Positions 6,687-25,239 of a stretch of 25,375 bases of DNA are shown here, one piece after another. Position 1 is the stretch's first letter, and each line of letters opens with the position of its first letter. This DNA comes from a virus, in the IMG/VR virus record IMGVR_UViG_3300035162_002296, positions 1 to 25,375 of that record; one strand, 5' to 3'. The position numbers and the translations under genes are program-made. The notes under the pieces were generated by a model. It had not been told where the DNA came from. It saw nothing but the letters and a program-made list of their open reading frames with translations, and searched no databases.

Positions 6687-6991
6687 TTTTTATTTACCTT
6701 TTTATTCTCGAACTCTGCCCATTCTATTGTTTCAATGTTAGCAATGCGAGCCTCTAATTGATCGATTTTCTTCGTGACATGCGGGTATTTATGACGCCAT
6801 GCTTCTGGGTTATCTTGTAACCAAGTCCACCCAAATCGATCTACCAAATAATCTAGGAATAAATCAAATTTTGCATAACACCAGAGTGCAGCATGTGTGT
6901 CTTTGAACCATGCAAGGAATGCGGCTCCAAAAATAGAACCAGCGATTGCCGTGTAGATCCAAAGGGTATCATCAAACATTTCGGCGAACAT
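6683..6991 (-). CDS. Membrane protein with C-terminal helix, 102 aa
   Basis: The start chosen is ATG at 6991 (FAEMFDDTLW...), preceded by GGAGAAGAAGCTG inside the end of the lipase gene; a later ATG at 6979 is also possible. One membrane helix (IYTAIAGSIFGAAFLAWF, about residues 12-29) is followed by an aromatic-rich segment (FDLFLDYLVDRFGWTWL) and a helical C terminus ending ENKKVNKK. The gene overlaps its neighbours on both sides, so translation is coupled. No family is recognised. Confidence 0.65.
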   Translation of the reverse strand: MFAEMFDDTLWIYTAIAGSIFGAAFLAWFKDTHAALWCYAKFDLFLDYLVDRFGWTWLQDNPEAWRHKYPHVTKKIDQLEARIANIETIEWAEFENKKVNKK

Positions 6992-7754
6992 CAGCTTCTT
7001 CTCCAGTGTATTGTGCGTAGTAATTAGAACTATGATCGAAGAAGTTATCAAATGGTTGACCTTTCTTCAATGCAGCCCATCGACCTTTCATCTTATCTCG
7101 GAATCTAGCACCCCAACTCAAACCAGCATGAACATTCCCTTTGAAGTCGATGTACATAGGACCACAATGATGTCGATATCCCATAATTGCCAGAGGAACA
7201 GTAGGCACGATGTCATTGTTATTGACGAATCGGAAATGAGGGACGTGTTTGAATGCCTTAACAAAGTCACTAGTACCTGTTCGAGGTGATCCGTAAGTGA
7301 ATAATGTATCAACACCGATGTCCATAGAGAATCGAGATGCAGCAACGGTTGCCATTGCACCACCCAAAGAGTGACCACATAGTGTGAGCTTCTTGTACAG
7401 ATGCGGCGTCAATCCATCAAGAATCATCGGCCACAATTTTTCTAATTCGTTTTGAAAGCCGTTGTGAACTTTTCCATGACCAATCATAGGCTTGTCTGGC
7501 CACGCATTGAGGTCAGCTAATAGATCTGAGAATTCAGCAGGTTCGGTACCTCGGAAGGCAATAGCAACTTCATGCTTATTCGATACTATGTGGCATTGTG
7601 CGCCGTCGTGATCGAGAAATTTGTGTGTCGACCAGTTTAATGCTTTGAAATGCGGTTTGGCTTCTTTACCATCTAGGTAGGCTGCTTGGGCCATTACTGC
7701 ATGTCGGTGACACTCAAGAATATCTTCATGGCTAAAAGTTGTTACTTTGCTCAT
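6972..7754 (-). CDS. Class 3 lipase (alpha/beta hydrolase), 260 aa
   Basis: The lipase class 3 nucleophile elbow GHSLGG is at residues 127-132, making S129 the nucleophile. D181 (FVNNNDIVP) and H241 (FFDHSSNYY) complete a Ser-Asp-His triad in the normal order. EVAIAFRGTE (62-71) is the conserved strand and oxyanion region upstream. There is no signal peptide, so it would work after entering the cytoplasm or membrane, or leave at lysis. GGAG at 7760-7763 best fits ATG 7754, with 7757 as an alternative. It is the first gene after the minus-strand late promoter and leads the small membrane-protein unit, which suggests phospholipid or storage-ester breakdown late in infection. The catalytic class is confident; the substrate is not. 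Confidence 0.88.
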   Translation of the reverse strand: MSKVTTFSHEDILECHRHAVMAQAAYLDGKEAKPHFKALNWSTHKFLDHDGAQCHIVSNKHEVAIAFRGTEPAEFSDLLADLNAWPDKPMIGHGKVHNGFQNELEKLWPMILDGLTPHLYKKLTLCGHSLGGAMATVAASRFSMDIGVDTLFTYGSPRTGTSDFVKAFKHVPHFRFVNNNDIVPTVPLAIMGYRHHCGPMYIDFKGNVHAGLSWGARFRDKMKGRWAALKKGQPFDNFFDHSSNYYAQYTGEEADVRRNV

Positions 7755-7784: not shown

Positions 7785-7798
7785 TTATTTATAAATAA
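7785..7798. promoter_or_regulatory. Palindromic bidirectional T4-type late promoter
   Basis: TTATTTATAAATAA is a perfect 14-bp palindrome. It holds TATAAATA on the plus strand (7790-7797) and on the minus strand (7793-7786). The minus copy is 32 bp from the lipase start and should drive the unit 7754-5568. The plus copy points to the heme oxygenase gene, which also has its own early-type promoter. Confidence 0.7.
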
Positions 7799-7810: not shown

Positions 7811-7839
7811 TTGACAATTACATTAAAACCTGATATAAT
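7811..7839 (+). promoter_or_regulatory. Consensus sigma70-type promoter for bilin genes
   Basis: TTGACA (7811-7816) and TATAAT (7834-7839) are exact consensus boxes with an ideal 17-bp spacer. Heme oxygenase starts 28 bp after the -10. Strong early transcription by host RNA polymerase is expected. Confidence 0.88.
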
Positions 7840-7867
7840 ACATATTATTCGATCAAAGAGGCATATT

Positions 7868-8482
7868 ATGGCGAACAATTTAAAAGAACTTACTTGGGAC
7901 CATCACCAAAACGCTGAGAGGACTGAGTTTGCTGAATTGCTGATCAGTGGTGATATCCACCCTAAACTCTATCAGAAATACTTATATGCCCAAATGATTA
8001 TTTACGGGACATTAGAAACGACAGTAAAAATTCCGTCTGAACTAGATAACATCTTTAGGTCTACAGCTATCATGGAAGATCTGCAAGAACTAGAGGATCT
8101 ACATGGTCTGCCGGAGATTGGTGAGACATACGACTCGGTGGGTGAATATATTCTACATATCTGTGATTTAGAAGACAAGAAAAATAACGATGGTCTTCTT
8201 GCGCATCTCTATGTTCGCCACTTCGGTGATCTGCATGGCGGCCAGATTATCAAAAAGCATGTGCCGGGATCTGGATCAATGTACGAATTTGAGGATCGAA
8301 AGTTATTGATCACCGGAGTTCGAGCCCTGTTACACGATGAGATGGTCGATGAAGCCAGAAAGTGTTTCGAATTTGCTGAACGGTTATTTTATGAGCTTAT
8401 GGACGATTGGAACTCTGGAAATGGTTACGAGGAATTAACAAGTTTTGTCGACCCGGAGTCAGATGATGATGAAGACTATTGA
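7868..8482 (+). CDS. ho1: Heme oxygenase (HO-1 type), 204 aa
   Basis: It cleaves heme to biliverdin IXalpha, CO and Fe2+, using reduced ferredoxin in bacterial/cyanophage systems. The N terminus has the heme-ligand motif H13-x-x-A-E (DHHQNAERTEF), and the distal helix reads FGDLHGGQ, where most members have GDLSGGQ; the Ser-to-His change is unusual. Length (204 aa) is normal, with an acidic extension (DPESDDDEDY). The start is ATG 7868, after AAAGAGG. The stop overlaps the bilin reductase start, so product can pass straight to the next enzyme of the pathway. The consensus early promoter lies upstream. The family is clear from the two motifs and the neighbour. Confidence 0.9.
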   Translation: MANNLKELTWDHHQNAERTEFAELLISGDIHPKLYQKYLYAQMIIYGTLETTVKIPSELDNIFRSTAIMEDLQELEDLHGLPEIGETYDSVGEYILHICDLEDKKNNDGLLAHLYVRHFGDLHGGQIIKKHVPGSGSMYEFEDRKLLITGVRALLHDEMVDEARKCFEFAERLFYELMDDWNSGNGYEELTSFVDPESDDDEDY

Positions 8483-9164
8483 AAACCCAATTTGGGATAG
8501 ATTGAGGCAGCTTGCTTCTGACATCGAGGAAGTATTCAACAAAAATCTTGCAAGCTACACAGACCCTCGACTGAAGGAGTTCGATGGTTGGTCCGACAAG
8601 CTTTGGAAATCGGACACGATCAGAAAAGCACACCTCAAGATCATCGAACCCGGCACAAAACATAATGGGAAACTGTGGTTGCTACATATCAATGTGTATC
8701 CACAGCCATGGATGAATCTGCCCATCTTAGGGTTTGATGTTGTATCGGGCCCTAACAAGATCAGCGGATCCTTTATGGACTTCTCTCCAGTGGCGGAAGA
8801 GAAACACCCATACGTTTCTTACTTCGAAGGTTTGACCTCAGAGGTTTCTTGGAAGAAAGAAAGAGAACTCCCACCTTGGGCACTCGAAATATTCTCACCT
8901 CACATTGTTGCTGCTGGTGGCATAACCGAAGGTGAAGAGCTAGAGAAGTTCTGTGAGATAGGTTTGGCAGCAGTGCAGTTTTATATCAGTGGTCTCAGTT
9001 CTGCAACCTATCAAGATGGCAATCACGATTATCTTCCAGCTCAGAATCTCTATTGCCACAACCAAAAGAAGAATGTTCAGTTACATAGATCCATTGCAAG
9101 CATGGGAATTGCAATGCATGATTCTTATCAATACATCAATGAAATATTATTCGAAGAAATTTAA
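8466..9164 (+). CDS. pcyX: Ferredoxin-dependent bilin reductase, PcyX-like
   Basis: The 232-aa protein has the hallmarks of ferredoxin-dependent bilin reductases: NPIWDRL at the start, LPILGFDVVSG (85-95), SGSFMDFSPV with the catalytic Asp at about 105, and the C-terminal QKKNVQLHRSIASMGIAMHD. Asn84 stands near where PcyA has its catalytic His, as in PebA/PebS-type enzymes, so phycoerythrobilin rather than phycocyanobilin is the more likely product. Heme oxygenase next to a reductase matches the PcyX cassette described from uncultured marine phages (Ledermann et al. 2016). It overlaps ho1; GGAG at 8455-8458 suits ATG 8466 (8463 and 8469 also possible). PcyX versus PebS assignment needs a tree. 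Confidence 0.85.
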   Translation: MMKTIENPIWDRLRQLASDIEEVFNKNLASYTDPRLKEFDGWSDKLWKSDTIRKAHLKIIEPGTKHNGKLWLLHINVYPQPWMNLPILGFDVVSGPNKISGSFMDFSPVAEEKHPYVSYFEGLTSEVSWKKERELPPWALEIFSPHIVAAGGITEGEELEKFCEIGLAAVQFYISGLSSATYQDGNHDYLPAQNLYCHNQKKNVQLHRSIASMGIAMHDSYQYINEILFEEI

Positions 9165-9273: not shown

Positions 9274-9393
9274 ATGATTAATTCTAAACAATCCGAAAGG
9301 TTTTGTTTAATTTGTAGCGTCTTACAAGTCGTCGGCATTATGTTAATAGGTCCAGTTATCGCTGGTTTAGTATTAACAACAGGATTGGCATAA
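9274..9393 (+). CDS. Tiny membrane protein, 39 aa
   Basis: ATG at 9274 has AAAAGGA eight bases upstream; an upstream TTG (9199) is in frame but has no support. The product MINSKQSERFCLICSVLQVV... carries a hydrophobic stretch to its C terminus (VGIMLIGPVIAGLVLTTGLA), probably a single or re-entrant membrane helix. It ends 4 bp before the next tiny membrane protein. Function unknown. Confidence 0.5.
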   Translation: MINSKQSERFCLICSVLQVVGIMLIGPVIAGLVLTTGLA

Positions 9394-9397
9394 GTTC

Positions 9398-9541
9398 ATG
9401 TCAAGAGATATTAAAGACAAATTGCTAATTGCAGCAGTAGTATCAATATTGATATTTGGTTTATTCGCACCACTCTTTACCCCGAATTACGGTGTTGTTG
9501 TGTCAGGTGAATCACTTTACATGCCAGTACCATATCTGTAA
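9398..9541 (+). CDS. Tiny membrane protein, 47 aa
   Basis: The frame MSRDIKDKLLIAAVVSILIF... has a charged N terminus, one membrane helix (about residues 9-27) and a short polar C-terminal part (NYGVVVSGESLYMPVPYL). The ribosome site is weak, but the start lies only 4 bp after the previous stop, so coupling is likely. No family is recognised. It is the last gene before the tmRNA region. Confidence 0.5.
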   Translation: MSRDIKDKLLIAAVVSILIFGLFAPLFTPNYGVVVSGESLYMPVPYL

Positions 9542-9547
9542 AACTTT

Positions 9548-9606
9548 TTGGGTGCCTCTTAAGCGCATGACGGCATAAACTGGGGAGACGCATCTCCCCG
9601 ACCCAA
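9548..9606 (+). other. Branched RNA element before the tmRNA gene
   Basis: TTGGGT (9548-9553) can pair with ACCCAA (9601-9606), enclosing TGCC/GGCA (9553-9556/9572-9575) and a strong hairpin GGGGAGA-CGCA-TCTCCCC (9582-9599). There is no U-run, so it is not a normal intrinsic terminator. It could be the 5' part of the acceptor-piece precursor, a processing signal or an independent RNA element. Confidence 0.4.
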
Positions 9607-9619
9607 TCTTTACAAAACA

Positions 9620-9890
9620 TTAAAATTCAGTGATGTATAATGAAATAAGCTGTGCGGACGCCGGTTCAACTCCGGCCACCTCCACCAGAGAGTATTCTAA
9701 AAAGTACTCTGTGTTGGGGGTGTAAGGGATTCGACGAACAGGGAAAGATTATACTAGGATCGGTCAATGCTAAAGACCGTTAAGGACTGGGAGGTTCCTA
9801 GTTAAAGAAGCAAAAACTATAAATGCAAACGATAGCATATATGTCGAGGCACGCCTAGCAGCGTAGTACTCTTCCGAGGATTAAGTCCCT
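9620..9890 (+). ncRNA. ssrA: Permuted two-piece tmRNA (ssrA)
   Basis: The acceptor part comes first: GGACGCCGGTTCAACTCCGG leads through the T arm (9660-9676) to CACCTCC-A-CCA (9677-9687). A 28-nt intervening segment with hairpin AGAGTA/TACTCT (9689-9710) follows. The coding part starts GGGGGTG at 9716, followed by the tmRNA-specific GGATTCGACGAACAGGG. GGGGGTG pairs with CACCTCC over 7 bp with G-U at the third pair, the alanine identity element. Helix 2 can form between ATTATAC (9748-9754) and GTATAAT (9635-9641). PK1 stems CGGTC/GACCG (9761/9775) and TAGGA/TCCTA (9755/9796) precede the tag frame. This order, acceptor before coding, is that of two-piece tmRNAs. Outer ends are approximate. It rescues stalled ribosomes. 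Confidence 0.92.
9825..9866 (+). other. tmRNA tag-peptide reading frame
   Basis: After AAAAACTATAAAT the resume codon GCA (9825) opens ANDSIYVEARLAA-stop (TAG 9864-9866). With the charged Ala the tag is AANDSIYVEARLAA. It keeps AANDxxY, the SspB-binding pattern of the E. coli tag, and ends LAA, the ClpX signal. The context before GCA is like that of cellular tmRNAs. Confidence 0.9.
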
Positions 9891-9963
9891 TGTTACCAAA
9901 TTACTTCCTACACCCACTTAATTGTGGGTTTCTGGGTACTAACTTTCATGTTTTAACAAGGGA
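9886..9963 (+). repeat. Inverted repeat covering a ribosome site
   Basis: TCCCTTGTTA (9886-9895) is a perfect complement of TAACAAGGGA (9954-9963). The right arm contains AAGGGA, the ribosome site of the 47-aa gene at 9968. Between the arms is a hairpin ACCCAC-TTAATT-GTGGGT (9912-9929). The left arm lies just after the tmRNA tag stop, so tmRNA 3' processing could decide whether the ribosome site is free. Confidence 0.5.
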
Positions 9964-11746: not shown

Positions 11747-12016
11747 ATGAATGACAACCAACCTGAGGATCCATTCGATATGGTAGTAGCAATGACACCC
11801 GAAAAAATCCATCACGCTATCGCTCACATGATAGCAAATGGTGTTCCCTACATCGATGCAATTGTCGAATATTCGGAGCGGAACAACTTAGAAATCGAAT
11901 CAGTGGCAGCAGTTATTAAGAAGTCCTCTATCTTAAAGGAAAAGATCAGAACAGAGGCCGTAAAACTTAGAATGGTGCAGAAAGATGAAGCAAATCTCAC
12001 AGACATATGCGAATGA
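11747..12016 (+). CDS. 33: Late-transcription co-activator gp33-like, 89 aa
   Basis: The C-terminal two thirds (GVPYIDAIVEYSERNNLEIE, then SVAAVIKKSSILKEKIRTEA) match the pattern of gp33 proteins of T4-like marine phages. gp33 bridges host RNA polymerase and the sliding clamp to activate late promoters. Position is decisive: the following genes are gp59 and gp32, the T4 order 33-59-32. It overlaps gp59 by 32 bp. The TATAAATA promoters elsewhere in this window would be its targets, together with a gp55-type sigma factor not seen here. Confidence 0.75.
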   Translation: MNDNQPEDPFDMVVAMTPEKIHHAIAHMIANGVPYIDAIVEYSERNNLEIESVAAVIKKSSILKEKIRTEAVKLRMVQKDEANLTDICE

Positions 12017-21576: not shown

Positions 21577-22276
21577 ACACCAATCGTCTGTGTCTCACCA
21601 ATATGCACTTCAAACTGCACAATCATGTGATGCTGTCGGCTTGCCGTGGCACTATTATGATGGCTATTCAAATATGACAGGGAAGGATGCTTGGGGCCAG
21701 ACTGGAATTAAAGTACAATTTGAATTTAATGATCCGCCTGTTGAGATGCGGCCTGAAGATTTGTTGCCAGATCATAAAGCCAATTGCGCAAGTGCAGGGC
21801 ATGCTGGAATCTGGTCACAGATTGCCAAGGGTAATGATGAAGCAGTTGTTGTCCTAGAACATGATGCGATGATGCTTCAACCAGTCGACATAGACATCCC
21901 TGAGCGCACAATCGGTGTCTTGGGCTATAAAGTCACAGATCCCCAAAATTATCGACACATAGAAGCAGGGCCACCAAAAACATGGATCGATATAGATGGA
22001 CACGAAGGTGCGCATGCTTATGTACTCACAAAGGATACTGCACAATACCTTGTCGATGAGATTGAAACCCAAGGTGTTAGAGGTGCTGTTGATAACATCT
22101 ATTTTATCAGAGGCCAAAGGCGAACACGAATTCCTCTGAAAATTGCATCACCGACACCTGCCATTGGTTGGATAAGAGAATCAACTATCTGGGCTGGTGG
22201 TCAATCTGCGACGAGCAACTACAAATTTATAAATTCATTTGATCGTCACTACAGTAAAGACAATAAATATAAATAA
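21548..22276 (+). CDS. GT25-like glycosyltransferase, 242 aa
   Basis: RAIILRHQSSVSHQYALQTA, then CASAGHAGIWSQIAKGNDEA and VVVLEHDAMM (E104-x-D106) match the GT25 (LPS beta-glycosyltransferase) layout: N-terminal donor strand, GH..W segment and acidic E/D-x-D motif. GAHAYVLTKDTAQYLVDEIE and GAVDNIYF are the conserved C-terminal parts. It follows a sulfotransferase and a GT32 enzyme, so together they may build or edit a sulfated sugar. The late promoter of the next gene overlaps its stop codon. Confidence 0.78.
   Translation: MKPTRAIILRHQSSVSHQYALQTAQSCDAVGLPWHYYDGYSNMTGKDAWGQTGIKVQFEFNDPPVEMRPEDLLPDHKANCASAGHAGIWSQIAKGNDEAVVVLEHDAMMLQPVDIDIPERTIGVLGYKVTDPQNYRHIEAGPPKTWIDIDGHEGAHAYVLTKDTAQYLVDEIETQGVRGAVDNIYFIRGQRRTRIPLKIASPTPAIGWIRESTIWAGGQSATSNYKFINSFDRHYSKDNKYK
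22268..22275 (+). promoter_or_regulatory. T4-type late promoter TATAAATA
   Basis: An exact late core overlaps the end of the GT25 gene and lies 30 bp before the 977-aa gene. Confidence 0.72.
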
Positions 22277-22305: not shown

Positions 22306-25239
22306 ATGCCTAAAAAGATTAAAGAAGTCGAAGATCAAGACGTTGATCAAGATGAGAAGCCCGCGAAGCAGGCCAAAAAAGAGCCTGAAAAGAAAGACAA
22401 AAAGAAGTCTAAGAAGATGGCTATTGCTTTCAAAGAATTTGATCCTGGCAAATATGTTGAGATCAATCCTGTTACCGAGGCTGTCAAGAAGAACGAGATC
22501 GTAATCTCTTTTGGTCGTATGAATCCAATTACAATTGGACATGAAAAAGTAGCAGATAAAGTCCTATCTATTGCAAAGAAGACCGGCGCTGAAGCTGGAA
22601 TCTATTTGTCTCACTCTCAAGATGCCAAGAAGAATCCTCTGTCTTATGATCAAAAGATCAAATATGGCCAGGCTGCATTCGGTAAGATTGTAAAGAAATC
22701 AAAGTCAAAGACAATTATTCAAGTAGCTCAAGAACTTCAGAATTCATTCAAGAATTTGACTATTGTTGTTGGGTCAGATCGTGTTAAAGAATTCGAAACA
22801 TTGCTCAATAAGTACAACGGTAAAGATTATACTTATGATGCTATCAATGTAGTCTCTGCTGGAGAACGAGATCCTGACGCCGAAGGAGCAGAAGGAATGT
22901 CTGCATCCAAAATGCGCAAGGCCGCAGCAGACGGTGATTTCGATTCATTCAAGAAAGGCTTGCCTAAAAAACTCCAACGAAAAGCACAAGAGGTTTGGGA
23001 TGCGGTTACTGGGGCGATGAATGAAGAAGTAGAACTTGATGAAGCAAAGTCTGCTACAGGATATGACCTGTATCACAAGACATACTCTGATGCAATGCAA
23101 CATGCTTATGCACATGCTAAGAAGAAGCATGGCGTAACTGTTAGTTCCGATGAAATTGATAGTAAAGTTGCAATGGGACCAAAGAAACCGTCTACTGGTA
23201 AAACTGTATCCCACATTCTTGGAACTAATAAGAAGAAAAATCTTCACGTTCAGGTCTACAACACTGGTAAGTCATACGAACTCAATATGTATGTTGAGGG
23301 TGTTGAAGAGTCCGAGGTCGAAGAAGCTTTGAATCCGGCACAACGCCGGGCCCGTGGCATACAGATGAAGAAGTTATCCAAAAAGATTGCTCGTAAGAAA
23401 AAGCAAACAATGAAGAAGCAGGCCTCTACCGAAAAATTGAAGGGACGTGCAGAAAAAGCGGCAAGAAACATTCTGAAGAAGAAGATTTCTGCTGGTAAAG
23501 ACACAGATGACTTGTCATATGCCCAGCGGCAAAAGATTGATGATAAAGTTAAAAAGATTGGGGGAGCTAAATTAAAGACTCTTGCCAAGAAGTTATTGCC
23601 TCAGATTAAGGCAAAAGAAAAAGAACGAATTAAAAAATTGCGTTCGAAAAAAGAAGAGTTTGTAGATGAGACAATTGATCTCAAGGAAGCTCTCGATTCT
23701 TATATGGAAGGTGGGATGCTCGACGAAGCAAGACATGCGCCAGTAAGAATCATGGCCCGCCCCCATCGCTTGTTGTCGGCAGACAATAAAGTTAAAATTG
23801 ACATGAGATTCAGTCAATATCGAAAATGGAAGCCCATTGTCGAACCCGCACCTAGTACAGATCAGGTCGACTCTCCCGAGCCGGAACTTGATGAAGAGGA
23901 TCCTTGTTGGGATGGATATCAGCAAGTAGGCATGAAGAAGAAGAACGGCAAGAAAGTTCCTAATTGTGTCCCCGAAGAATTCGAAGAGAATCTGAACCCT
24001 AGGCAGATTGCACTGCTCAAGAAAAACTATTCTACAATTGACCGGATCGACCCCAATGGCCCTGCATACAAGAAAGCAAAAGGGATGATTGCTGGATTAG
24101 AGAAGGATAACCTGATTGACTTAGCAAAATCAAAGGTCAAGTTCATATCACAGATGGCGGCTGACGAGTTACGAAAGACACATAATGTCAAGTTGAAGGC
24201 CTCTGAATACATGGAGTCAGTAGATCTCGAAGAAATCGAGGAAGGTGTCAATGATCCAGCTATATTTAAAGCCATCTTCTTGGCGGGAGGCCCAGGTTCT
24301 GGCAAGTCATTCATTGCAGGTAAGTCTGCTTTCTCTACATTTGGGATGCGTGTAGTCAATTCTGATGACGCATTCGAAAGCGCGATGAAGAAAGCTGGAT
24401 TGGATCTGGGTAAAGACATATTCACTGACAAAGGTCAAGAGATCCGTAGCAAGGCTGTGGATATAACAAAAATGAGACAAGACTTGTATATCAAGGGCCG
24501 GCTTGGTCTTGTCATCGATGGAACTGGCAAAGAATATGATAAAATCAAAAATCAAGCTACCGAGTTAAAGAAACTTGGTTATGATGTTTCTATGGTCTTT
24601 GTCAATACAAGCCTTGAAACTGCTCAGGAACGAAATCAAAATCGTGATAGGAAGTTGCCTGAAAAACAAGTAGAAAAGATGTGGAAAGAAGTTCAAAAGA
24701 ACATCGGCAAATATCAGTCTCTATTCAAGAAAGACTTCATCGTTGTTGATAACAGCGAAGGTGTTAATTGGGAAAAGGGCGTAATGAAAGCATATAAATG
24801 GGCTATGAAATGGTCTAAGAAGGAACCACAAAGCTCAACGGCTCAAAAATGGATATCCGACATGCGCGAAGAGTTGGAAGAATCTACATTCGAAGGTTCT
24901 GTTATTGATTCTGTAGTCCCTTGGTTAGGTCGATGGCTCGACACAAGGGTCAAAAAGAAAGCATACACAGCTGCTATTAGATACTTCCTTAAATTACGAA
25001 AGAAGAAGCCCGGAGAAGCAAGAAAGAATCTCGTCAAGTCTGCTCAGGTTTTTGATCTTGATGTAAGAGCATTGGATAAGATGTTCAGAGATCTTGTCGC
25101 CAAAGGAGCTATGCCTAAACATCTTATCCAATATCATCCTACCTTTAAACCTGAATCGTATGATAATGAAGCCGGGGCCGGTGAAGAGGGCTCTGATAAA
25201 TTAGTAAACAATTATAAGTCCGACACGCCTGGAGAATAA
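22306..25239 (+). CDS. 977-aa multidomain protein: nucleotidyltransferase, P-loop kinase
   Basis: After a Lys-rich tail (1-37), residues about 63-235 form a cytidylyltransferase-like domain: SFGRMNPITIGH (69-79, the HxGH-type motif), VVGSDRV (154-160) and SASKMRKA (199-206, the ISSTxxR-type motif), as in NMNAT. Residues 253-331 (YDLYHKTYSDAMQHAYAHAK...) are a module I associate with T4-like marine phages. A very basic stretch follows (340-450). Residues 656-855 are a P-loop kinase (GGPGSGKS 661-668, VVNSDDAF, GLVIDGTGKEYDK, lid NRDRKLPEKQ). A 118-aa helical C terminus ends it. Sites of the T4 prohead-protease type lie at 246|247, 461|462, 474|475, 646|647 and 859|860. Late promoter upstream. 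Domains are seen; polyprotein processing is inference. Confidence 0.8.
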   Translation: MPKKIKEVEDQDVDQDEKPAKQAKKEPEKKDKKKSKKMAIAFKEFDPGKYVEINPVTEAVKKNEIVISFGRMNPITIGHEKVADKVLSIAKKTGAEAGIYLSHSQDAKKNPLSYDQKIKYGQAAFGKIVKKSKSKTIIQVAQELQNSFKNLTIVVGSDRVKEFETLLNKYNGKDYTYDAINVVSAGERDPDAEGAEGMSASKMRKAAADGDFDSFKKGLPKKLQRKAQEVWDAVTGAMNEEVELDEAKSATGYDLYHKTYSDAMQHAYAHAKKKHGVTVSSDEIDSKVAMGPKKPSTGKTVSHILGTNKKKNLHVQVYNTGKSYELNMYVEGVEESEVEEALNPAQRRARGIQMKKLSKKIARKKKQTMKKQASTEKLKGRAEKAARNILKKKISAGKDTDDLSYAQRQKIDDKVKKIGGAKLKTLAKKLLPQIKAKEKERIKKLRSKKEEFVDETIDLKEALDSYMEGGMLDEARHAPVRIMARPHRLLSADNKVKIDMRFSQYRKWKPIVEPAPSTDQVDSPEPELDEEDPCWDGYQQVGMKKKNGKKVPNCVPEEFEENLNPRQIALLKKNYSTIDRIDPNGPAYKKAKGMIAGLEKDNLIDLAKSKVKFISQMAADELRKTHNVKLKASEYMESVDLEEIEEGVNDPAIFKAIFLAGGPGSGKSFIAGKSAFSTFGMRVVNSDDAFESAMKKAGLDLGKDIFTDKGQEIRSKAVDITKMRQDLYIKGRLGLVIDGTGKEYDKIKNQATELKKLGYDVSMVFVNTSLETAQERNQNRDRKLPEKQVEKMWKEVQKNIGKYQSLFKKDFIVVDNSEGVNWEKGVMKAYKWAMKWSKKEPQSSTAQKWISDMREELEESTFEGSVIDSVVPWLGRWLDTRVKKKAYTAAIRYFLKLRKKKPGEARKNLVKSAQVFDLDVRALDKMFRDLVAKGAMPKHLIQYHPTFKPESYDNEAGAGEEGSDKLVNNYKSDTPGE

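Follow-up and report, generated by a model that had tools for sequence, protein, structure and literature searches.

The reductase encoded in the viral DNA analyzed here is, judging by its sequence, a member of a separate phage clade of ferredoxin-dependent bilin reductases (FDBRs) that grew out of PcyX-like (Asp) phage enzymes. The DNA (hereafter the window) comprises positions 1-25,375 of the 25,375-base virus record IMGVR_UViG_3300035162_002296. Genes, promoter sequences, clade, residues, fold, and synteny were computed here, and we infer activity, product, timing, host, and benefit. We regard it as reasonably probable that the window holds a working heme-to-bilin cassette, whose Lys-type FDBR would give an A-ring-reduced bilin, with early and late expression. 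The features concerned are as follows.

7786-7797, both strands: TATTTATAAATA, two T4-type late promoters placed back to back, immediately before the -35 box
7790-7797, + strand: TATAAATA, 78 bp before the heme oxygenase ATG
7793-7786, - strand: TATAAATA, toward the lipase gene
7811-7839, + strand: exact TTGACA-17-TATAAT with an extended -10 TG, 12/12 match
7868-8482, + strand: heme oxygenase, 204 aa
8463-9164, + strand: ferredoxin-dependent bilin reductase, Lys type, 233 aa
8637-8639, + strand: Lys59 codon, at the position of PcyA Glu76 / PcyX Asp55
8685-8687, + strand: His75 codon, kept (PcyA His88)
8691-8693, + strand: Asn77 codon, second clade signature (Cys in the Asp type)
8736-8738, + strand: Asp92 codon, kept (PcyA Asp105)
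9632-9866, + strand: permuted (two-piece) tmRNA, ARAGORN span 9595-9957, tag ANDSIYVEARLAA
11704-11732, + strand: second exact TTGACA-17-TATAAT, just upstream of gp33
11747-12016, + strand: gp33-like late transcription coactivator, first gene of the gp33-gp59-gp32-uvsX-gp41 block

An earlier note on this DNA had described overlapping heme oxygenase and bilin reductase genes, and both assignments were borne out well above the Pfam cut-offs. The oxygenase scored 67.8 bits against Heme_oxygenase PF01126 (cut-off 23), indicating the HO-1 type family, and the reductase scored 70.6 bits against Fe_bilin_red PF05996 (cut-off 31), indicating an FDBR. In the alignments, the oxygenase showed His13, which falls on the residue that we take to be the proximal heme ligand, and GDLHGGQ, which carries the GD..GGQ presumed to be the HO-1 type distal motif. 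The two frames overlap on the + strand as claimed, the oxygenase running to 8482 and the reductase starting at ATG 8463 (ATG 8466 and 8469 are also possible). This overlap is not kept in relatives; in L002 the genes lie approximately 180 bp apart. Position 7811, previously taken as the start, is that of the -35 box and not of a gene, and the oxygenase ATG lies at 7868. One small putative membrane ORF was observed between oxygenase and reductase in L002, and the window has such ORFs at 9274-9393 and about 9400-9542, between the reductase and the tmRNA. A class 3 lipase gene (6972-7754, - strand) is divergent from the cassette, the palindromic late-promoter region being common to both, and a homologous lipase occupies the same place in L002.

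The T4-like character of the genome was likewise confirmed, since gp33, gp59, gp32, UvsX, and gp41 are all present in the window, as a conserved gp33-gp59-gp32-uvsX-gp41 block downstream of the cassette, after the tmRNA. The sequence supports the reading of a T4-like phage in which bilin-making genes lie beside a permuted tmRNA of the alphaproteobacterial type. The nearest named relatives of these other genes were a mixture of cyanophages and non-cyanophages: Synechococcus phage BUCT-ZZ01 for UvsX (56%), methylophage Melnitz (61%) and Sinorhizobium phage phiN3 (58%) for gp32, and Stenotrophomonas phage DLP_6 together with Synechococcus phages for gp41. Elsewhere in the window, positions 22306-25239 encode a 977-aa protein with a cytidylyltransferase-like and a zeta-toxin/AAA-like domain, with TATAAATA ahead at 22268 and sulfotransferase- and glycosyltransferase-like genes upstream.

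Next, we analyzed the family, fold, and active-site residues of the reductase. The nearest solved structure by sequence was PcyX 5owg (E 2.3e-40). The AlphaFold model (pLDDT 84.6) showed the FDBR fold, and it matched 5owg with Z 21.5 and rmsd 1.7 over 175 residues and PcyA structures with Z up to 22.7. The chain numbers of the sequence and structure alignments set Lys59 on PcyA Glu76 / PcyX Asp55. In the model, Lys59, His75/Asn77, and Asp92 sit on three successive strands (53-61, 72-80, and 88-95), Asn77 being two residues after the PcyA His88 position. Thus, at the place of the PcyX catalytic Asp55 the query has Lys59, and in place of the PcyA triad Glu76, His88, and Asp105 it has Lys59, His75, and Asp92. 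A standard PcyX was rejected on this residue, and PcyA was rejected both on residue and on the NCBIfam PcyA model PRK02816, against which the reductase reached 91.2 bits with a cut-off of 206.

The distribution of this column was then counted in relatives drawn from IMG/VR (best 80 of 202, best 80 of 199, and best 80 of 257), GTDB genomes, named phages, and a few genomes searched by family, after ORFs shorter than 180 aa had been dropped. Because the sets were ranked by similarity to the query, the counts show that the classes exist and not how abundant they are. Among the matches listed, 219 distinct FDBRs carried Asp (114), Lys (58), Glu (46), or Ala (1) at the Glu76/Asp55 column, the single Ala row being PebA/PebB-like. 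Asn77 accompanied Lys in 58/58 and Cys accompanied Asp in 114/114 of these listed matches. The central Asp (PcyA Asp105), which is Asp92 in the query, was Asp in 219/219 distinct sequences among the matches listed, and the flanking His57 was invariant in all 218 listed rows with Lys, Asp, or Glu. A broader viral scan (best 80 of 592; ORFs shorter than 170 aa dropped and four control rows left out of the count) gave 69 distinct sequences among the matches listed, with 60 Asp, 7 Glu, 1 Gln, and 1 Val. The phage reductases with Glu were L311, L312, L315, L317, L318, L339, and L371, while L313 had Gln and L379 had Val; this group is possibly that of the phage CB_2 enzyme. An alphaproteobacterial-PcyA profile gave no match in viral contigs, and Glu-type phage enzymes were among the matches listed for a broader PcyA profile. 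A search for pmoC in 12 records gave no match, but the control was also without a match anywhere, so this negative carries no weight. We recognized no prior mention of the Lys residue or of a late-promoter cassette in the literature searched, and absence from print is not claimed.

Phylogenetic trees placed the Lys-type enzymes together. A quick tree of 87 rows united the Lys rows in a single clade (99*) with the Asp rows as its sister, and in it the query fell within the Lys clade and PebS, a long branch, fell with PebA/PebB-like outgroup rows. In a careful tree of 80 rows, from which columns 59, 77, and 208 had been removed, the Lys clade was recovered at 97/100 and the Asp rows were not one clade. 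When nine further viral rows were added, the Lys clade (100/100) was nested among Asp rows, with the Asp-type L170 next to it (92/93), and five Glu rows and one Gln row, all viral, branched below PcyX (99/95). No non-Lys row fell inside the Lys clade. Because the PcyX (Asp) rows do not form one clade in the latter two trees, the exact branching order is unsure; the bootstraps had also not settled fully. The simplest history of the column would be Glu to Asp to Lys. The earlier note had proposed this phylogeny, naming as evidence against its reading the clustering of the reductase with cyanophage PebS/PcyA and of other genes with cyanophages. The reductase groups neither with PebS nor with cyanophage PcyA, so that half of the opposing evidence did not materialize; a PebS or cyanophage origin was rejected on the tree. 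Four Lys-type loci occurred in metagenome-assembled genomes (MAGs; one Bacteroidetes and three Rhodobacteraceae). A bacterial origin of the Lys-type enzymes was rejected, as the ORFs of L174-L176 mark these as T4-like phage contigs and L177 has gp33, gp59, and gp32 downstream.

The genomic site of the cassette was compared using one locus per distinct reductase, with gp33 and gp59 tested where 3.5 kb of downstream sequence was available. By the rule applied, a heme oxygenase gene lay just upstream in 49 of the 52 listed Lys-type loci with enough upstream sequence; in L302, L306, and L307 it was 1.0-1.1 kb upstream. Both gp33 and gp59 were found downstream in 40/40 testable Lys-type loci among the matches listed, and gp59 was downstream in only 3/66 listed Asp-type loci (L076, L155, and L172). 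The Asp-type L155 and L172 had a permuted tmRNA together with the complete gp33-gp59-gp32 block, and L170 was identical to L172 in the stretch aligned. Because L155 and L172, Asp-type members of the sister lineage, occupy the same site, the cassette was probably upstream of gp33 before Asp became Lys. On this view, the cassette would already have been in place when the Lys-type FDBR arose out of PcyX-like (Asp) phage enzymes.

The hemO-pcyX cassettes of marine phages (PcyX_EBK42635, PDB 5owg; Pelagibacter phage Mosig) resemble this arrangement in that a heme oxygenase adjoins an FDBR of the same fold in a T4-like phage, and the Mosig reductase is 34% identical to that of the window. However, the Lys-type cassettes differ from them by Lys for Asp55, Asn for Cys, a separate clade, and a late promoter of their own, and they stand before gp33-gp59, whereas the Mosig cassette is beside neck protein genes. 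The earlier statement that the arrangement matches the PcyX cassettes was not upheld: Lys replaces the PcyX-specific Asp55, and the cassette occupies another genomic site.

As for the chemistry, the heme oxygenase would open heme to biliverdin, releasing iron and CO, and the Lys-type reductase, with host ferredoxin, would reduce the biliverdin. Reduction of the 18-vinyl group is described as needing Glu76, which PcyX and pre-PcyA lack, and the pre-PcyA enzymes are described as reducing the A-ring (PMC10151467). As the equivalents of Asp105 and His88 are kept and Lys replaces the product-tied acid, A-ring reduction is plausible and phycocyanobilin (PCB) unlikely on sequence grounds. The predicted product would be phytochromobilin and/or phycoerythrobilin. 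Against this prediction, PcyX and PebS are reported to form the same product by different mechanisms (PMC6755814), so that one residue need not fix the product. The pre-PcyA enzymes (pre-2/pre-3) are like the Lys type in being without Glu76 and keeping Asp105, but they are without His88, which the Lys type keeps, and in bacteria they occur beside bilin-binding globins (PMC10151467). PcyA of cyanobacteria, cyanophages, and alphaproteobacteria shares His88 and Asp105 with the window reductase, which differs in having Lys for Glu76 and in scoring below the NCBIfam PcyA cut-off.

A further possibility, tentative though worth serious attention, is that these enzymes form a further catalytic FDBR class, in which the acid that sets the product in PcyA and PcyX was replaced by an obligate Lys (with a paired Cys-to-Asn change) in one T4-like lineage at one fixed site. 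Such a class would provide a new regiochemistry or a new bilin, mainly late, in non-phototrophic hosts. Alternatively, the enzyme may in effect be an ordinary PcyX, making phycoerythrobilin via 15,16-dihydrobiliverdin despite the Lys. This would suit its closest solved relative by sequence and the growth of the Lys clade out of PcyX-like enzymes. We nevertheless consider this rather unlikely, since Asp55, described as the specific catalytic residue of PcyX (PMC11480375), is Lys in every sampled clade member and the second strand residue has also changed, from Cys to Asn.

Heme breakdown with release of iron and CO could itself be the point, the reductase only removing biliverdin or having become a bilin-binding protein. 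The window encodes a 2OG-Fe(II) oxygenase at 1629-2222, several such genes lie beside the Mosig cassette, and a search of 21 records found no phytochrome above the cut-off, all of which would fit. However, the clade retains His88, Asp105, and the fold throughout, none of which would be needed by a protein that only binds bilins; we hold this reading, too, to be improbable. For the working cassette preferred here, the most likely benefit would be to turn over heme, freeing iron and disposing of biliverdin. Weighing against a working cassette, no ferredoxin was found above the cut-off among 20 Lys-type records, mostly fragments, whereas one was found in Mosig, a PcyX-carrying pelagiphage with a Fer2-type ferredoxin gene (MT647606.1, 2758-3000, - strand).

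It is quite doubtful that the enzyme makes PCB as that of phage CB_2 does. The CB_2 vPcyA, described as PCB-forming and likewise without Asp55 (PMC11480375), may itself be Lys-type. On the other hand, the 18-vinyl step is described as dependent on Glu76 (PMC10151467), and the Glu-keeping phage enzymes that branch below PcyX (99/95) would be a more natural home for CB_2. The vHemO/vPcyA of CB_2, accompanied by vAlaS (PMC11480375), is similar in being a phage cassette in a non-cyanobacterial host, and two Lys-type records also carry 5-aminolevulinate synthase. These were the only 2 of 28 records searched in which this gene was found (G014, locus L245; G028, locus L303), and one of the two matches has an internal stop. 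CB_2 differs in being a 527-kb phage (PMC7674155) and in its PCB-making enzyme.

The tmRNA matched Rfam RF04321 (102 bits) and RF01849 (57.3 bits) and is of the alphaproteobacterial type. Its position shifts: it follows the reductase in the window (9632-9866), lies between the promoter and heme oxygenase in L015, L016 (6855-7230), and L097, and lies just before the oxygenase in L002 (8893-9216). With at least 4 kb of upstream sequence, a permuted alphaproteobacterial-type tmRNA was present in 13/29 Lys-type vs 7/77 Asp-type loci among the matches listed. Methylophage Melnitz is reported to carry a two-piece tmRNA of alphaproteobacterial affinity (PMC9004378), a warning that the host now infected may differ from the one suggested by the type of tmRNA. 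Binning had grouped three Lys-type contigs with a Rhodobacteraceae MAG, and an alphaproteobacterial host is likely.

The upstream region of the cassette was then analyzed for control elements. The sequence TATAAATA is the T4-type late-promoter consensus, and the back-to-back copies in the window had been missed in the earlier note. In the 150 bp ahead of the oxygenase start, it occurred in 38/53 Lys-type loci (1.2 expected) and in 1/99 Asp-type loci (1.9 expected) among the matches listed; the 53 include near-identical loci and are not a count of independent events. The box mostly lies 31-63 bp before the oxygenase start codon, compared with 78 bp in the window. As controls, it preceded gp33 in 4/53, gp59 in 0/52, and the FDBR gene in 0/55 of the listed Lys-type loci. 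It also preceded gp32 in 17/50 of those listed; T4 gene 32 also has a late promoter. In G014, a Lys-type phage of 169,742 bases, TATAAATA precedes gp23 by 50 bp and the tail sheath gene by 67 bp, so that, as expected of a late promoter, the box stands in front of capsid and tail genes in this lineage. Four further stretches of G014 had 4 of 6 boxes with an ORF within 130 bp, and three of these four ORFs matched tail/baseplate families and one had no match. Judged by the placement of its boxes, this pattern in Lys-type phages is the T4 late-promoter pattern, and the conserved control element across the Lys clade is, on the same grounds, a T4-type late promoter, from which the cassette would be transcribed in most of the clade.

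The exact TTGACA-17-TATAAT that had been claimed before the cassette is indeed present at 7811-7839. It could be a chance match, with the cassette expressed only late, and most Lys-type loci are without it; a box matching at least 11 of 12 positions occurred in 3/53 Lys-type loci among the matches listed (0.3 expected). Yet this is the least probable of the alternatives, and we reject it on conservation: the match is 12/12, the window has two exact copies against an expectation of 0.03, and TTGACA-17-TAAGAT is kept at the cassette position in L095 and L096 and also ahead of the tmRNA in L015 and L097. L129 and L157 have an 11-of-12 sigma70-type box, and the exact sequence recurs where the gp33 frame begins in L016, L095, and L096. 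Expression from the start of infection, as had been proposed, is thus upheld as to the sigma70-type promoter but not as a general feature, because conservation of this promoter is confined to the closest relatives of the window and most Lys-type loci carry the late promoter. The early promoter is, by this pattern, real but local, and the signal common to the clade appears to be the late one. In the window's sub-branch, the strong sigma70-type promoter would add to it, giving early and late expression.

Bilin-making by phages of hosts without phycobilisomes is described as "still enigmatic" (PMC11480375). The present lineage offers a test, in that one locus has undergone a switch from Asp to Lys and a living Asp-type intermediate (L155/L170/L172) occupies the same site. 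The late promoter indicates when the bilin product is likely made, and such late timing would weigh against models in which bilins are needed for early cell takeover. Moreover, the Lys- and Asp-type enzymes of this one locus bear on whether the phage changed the product.
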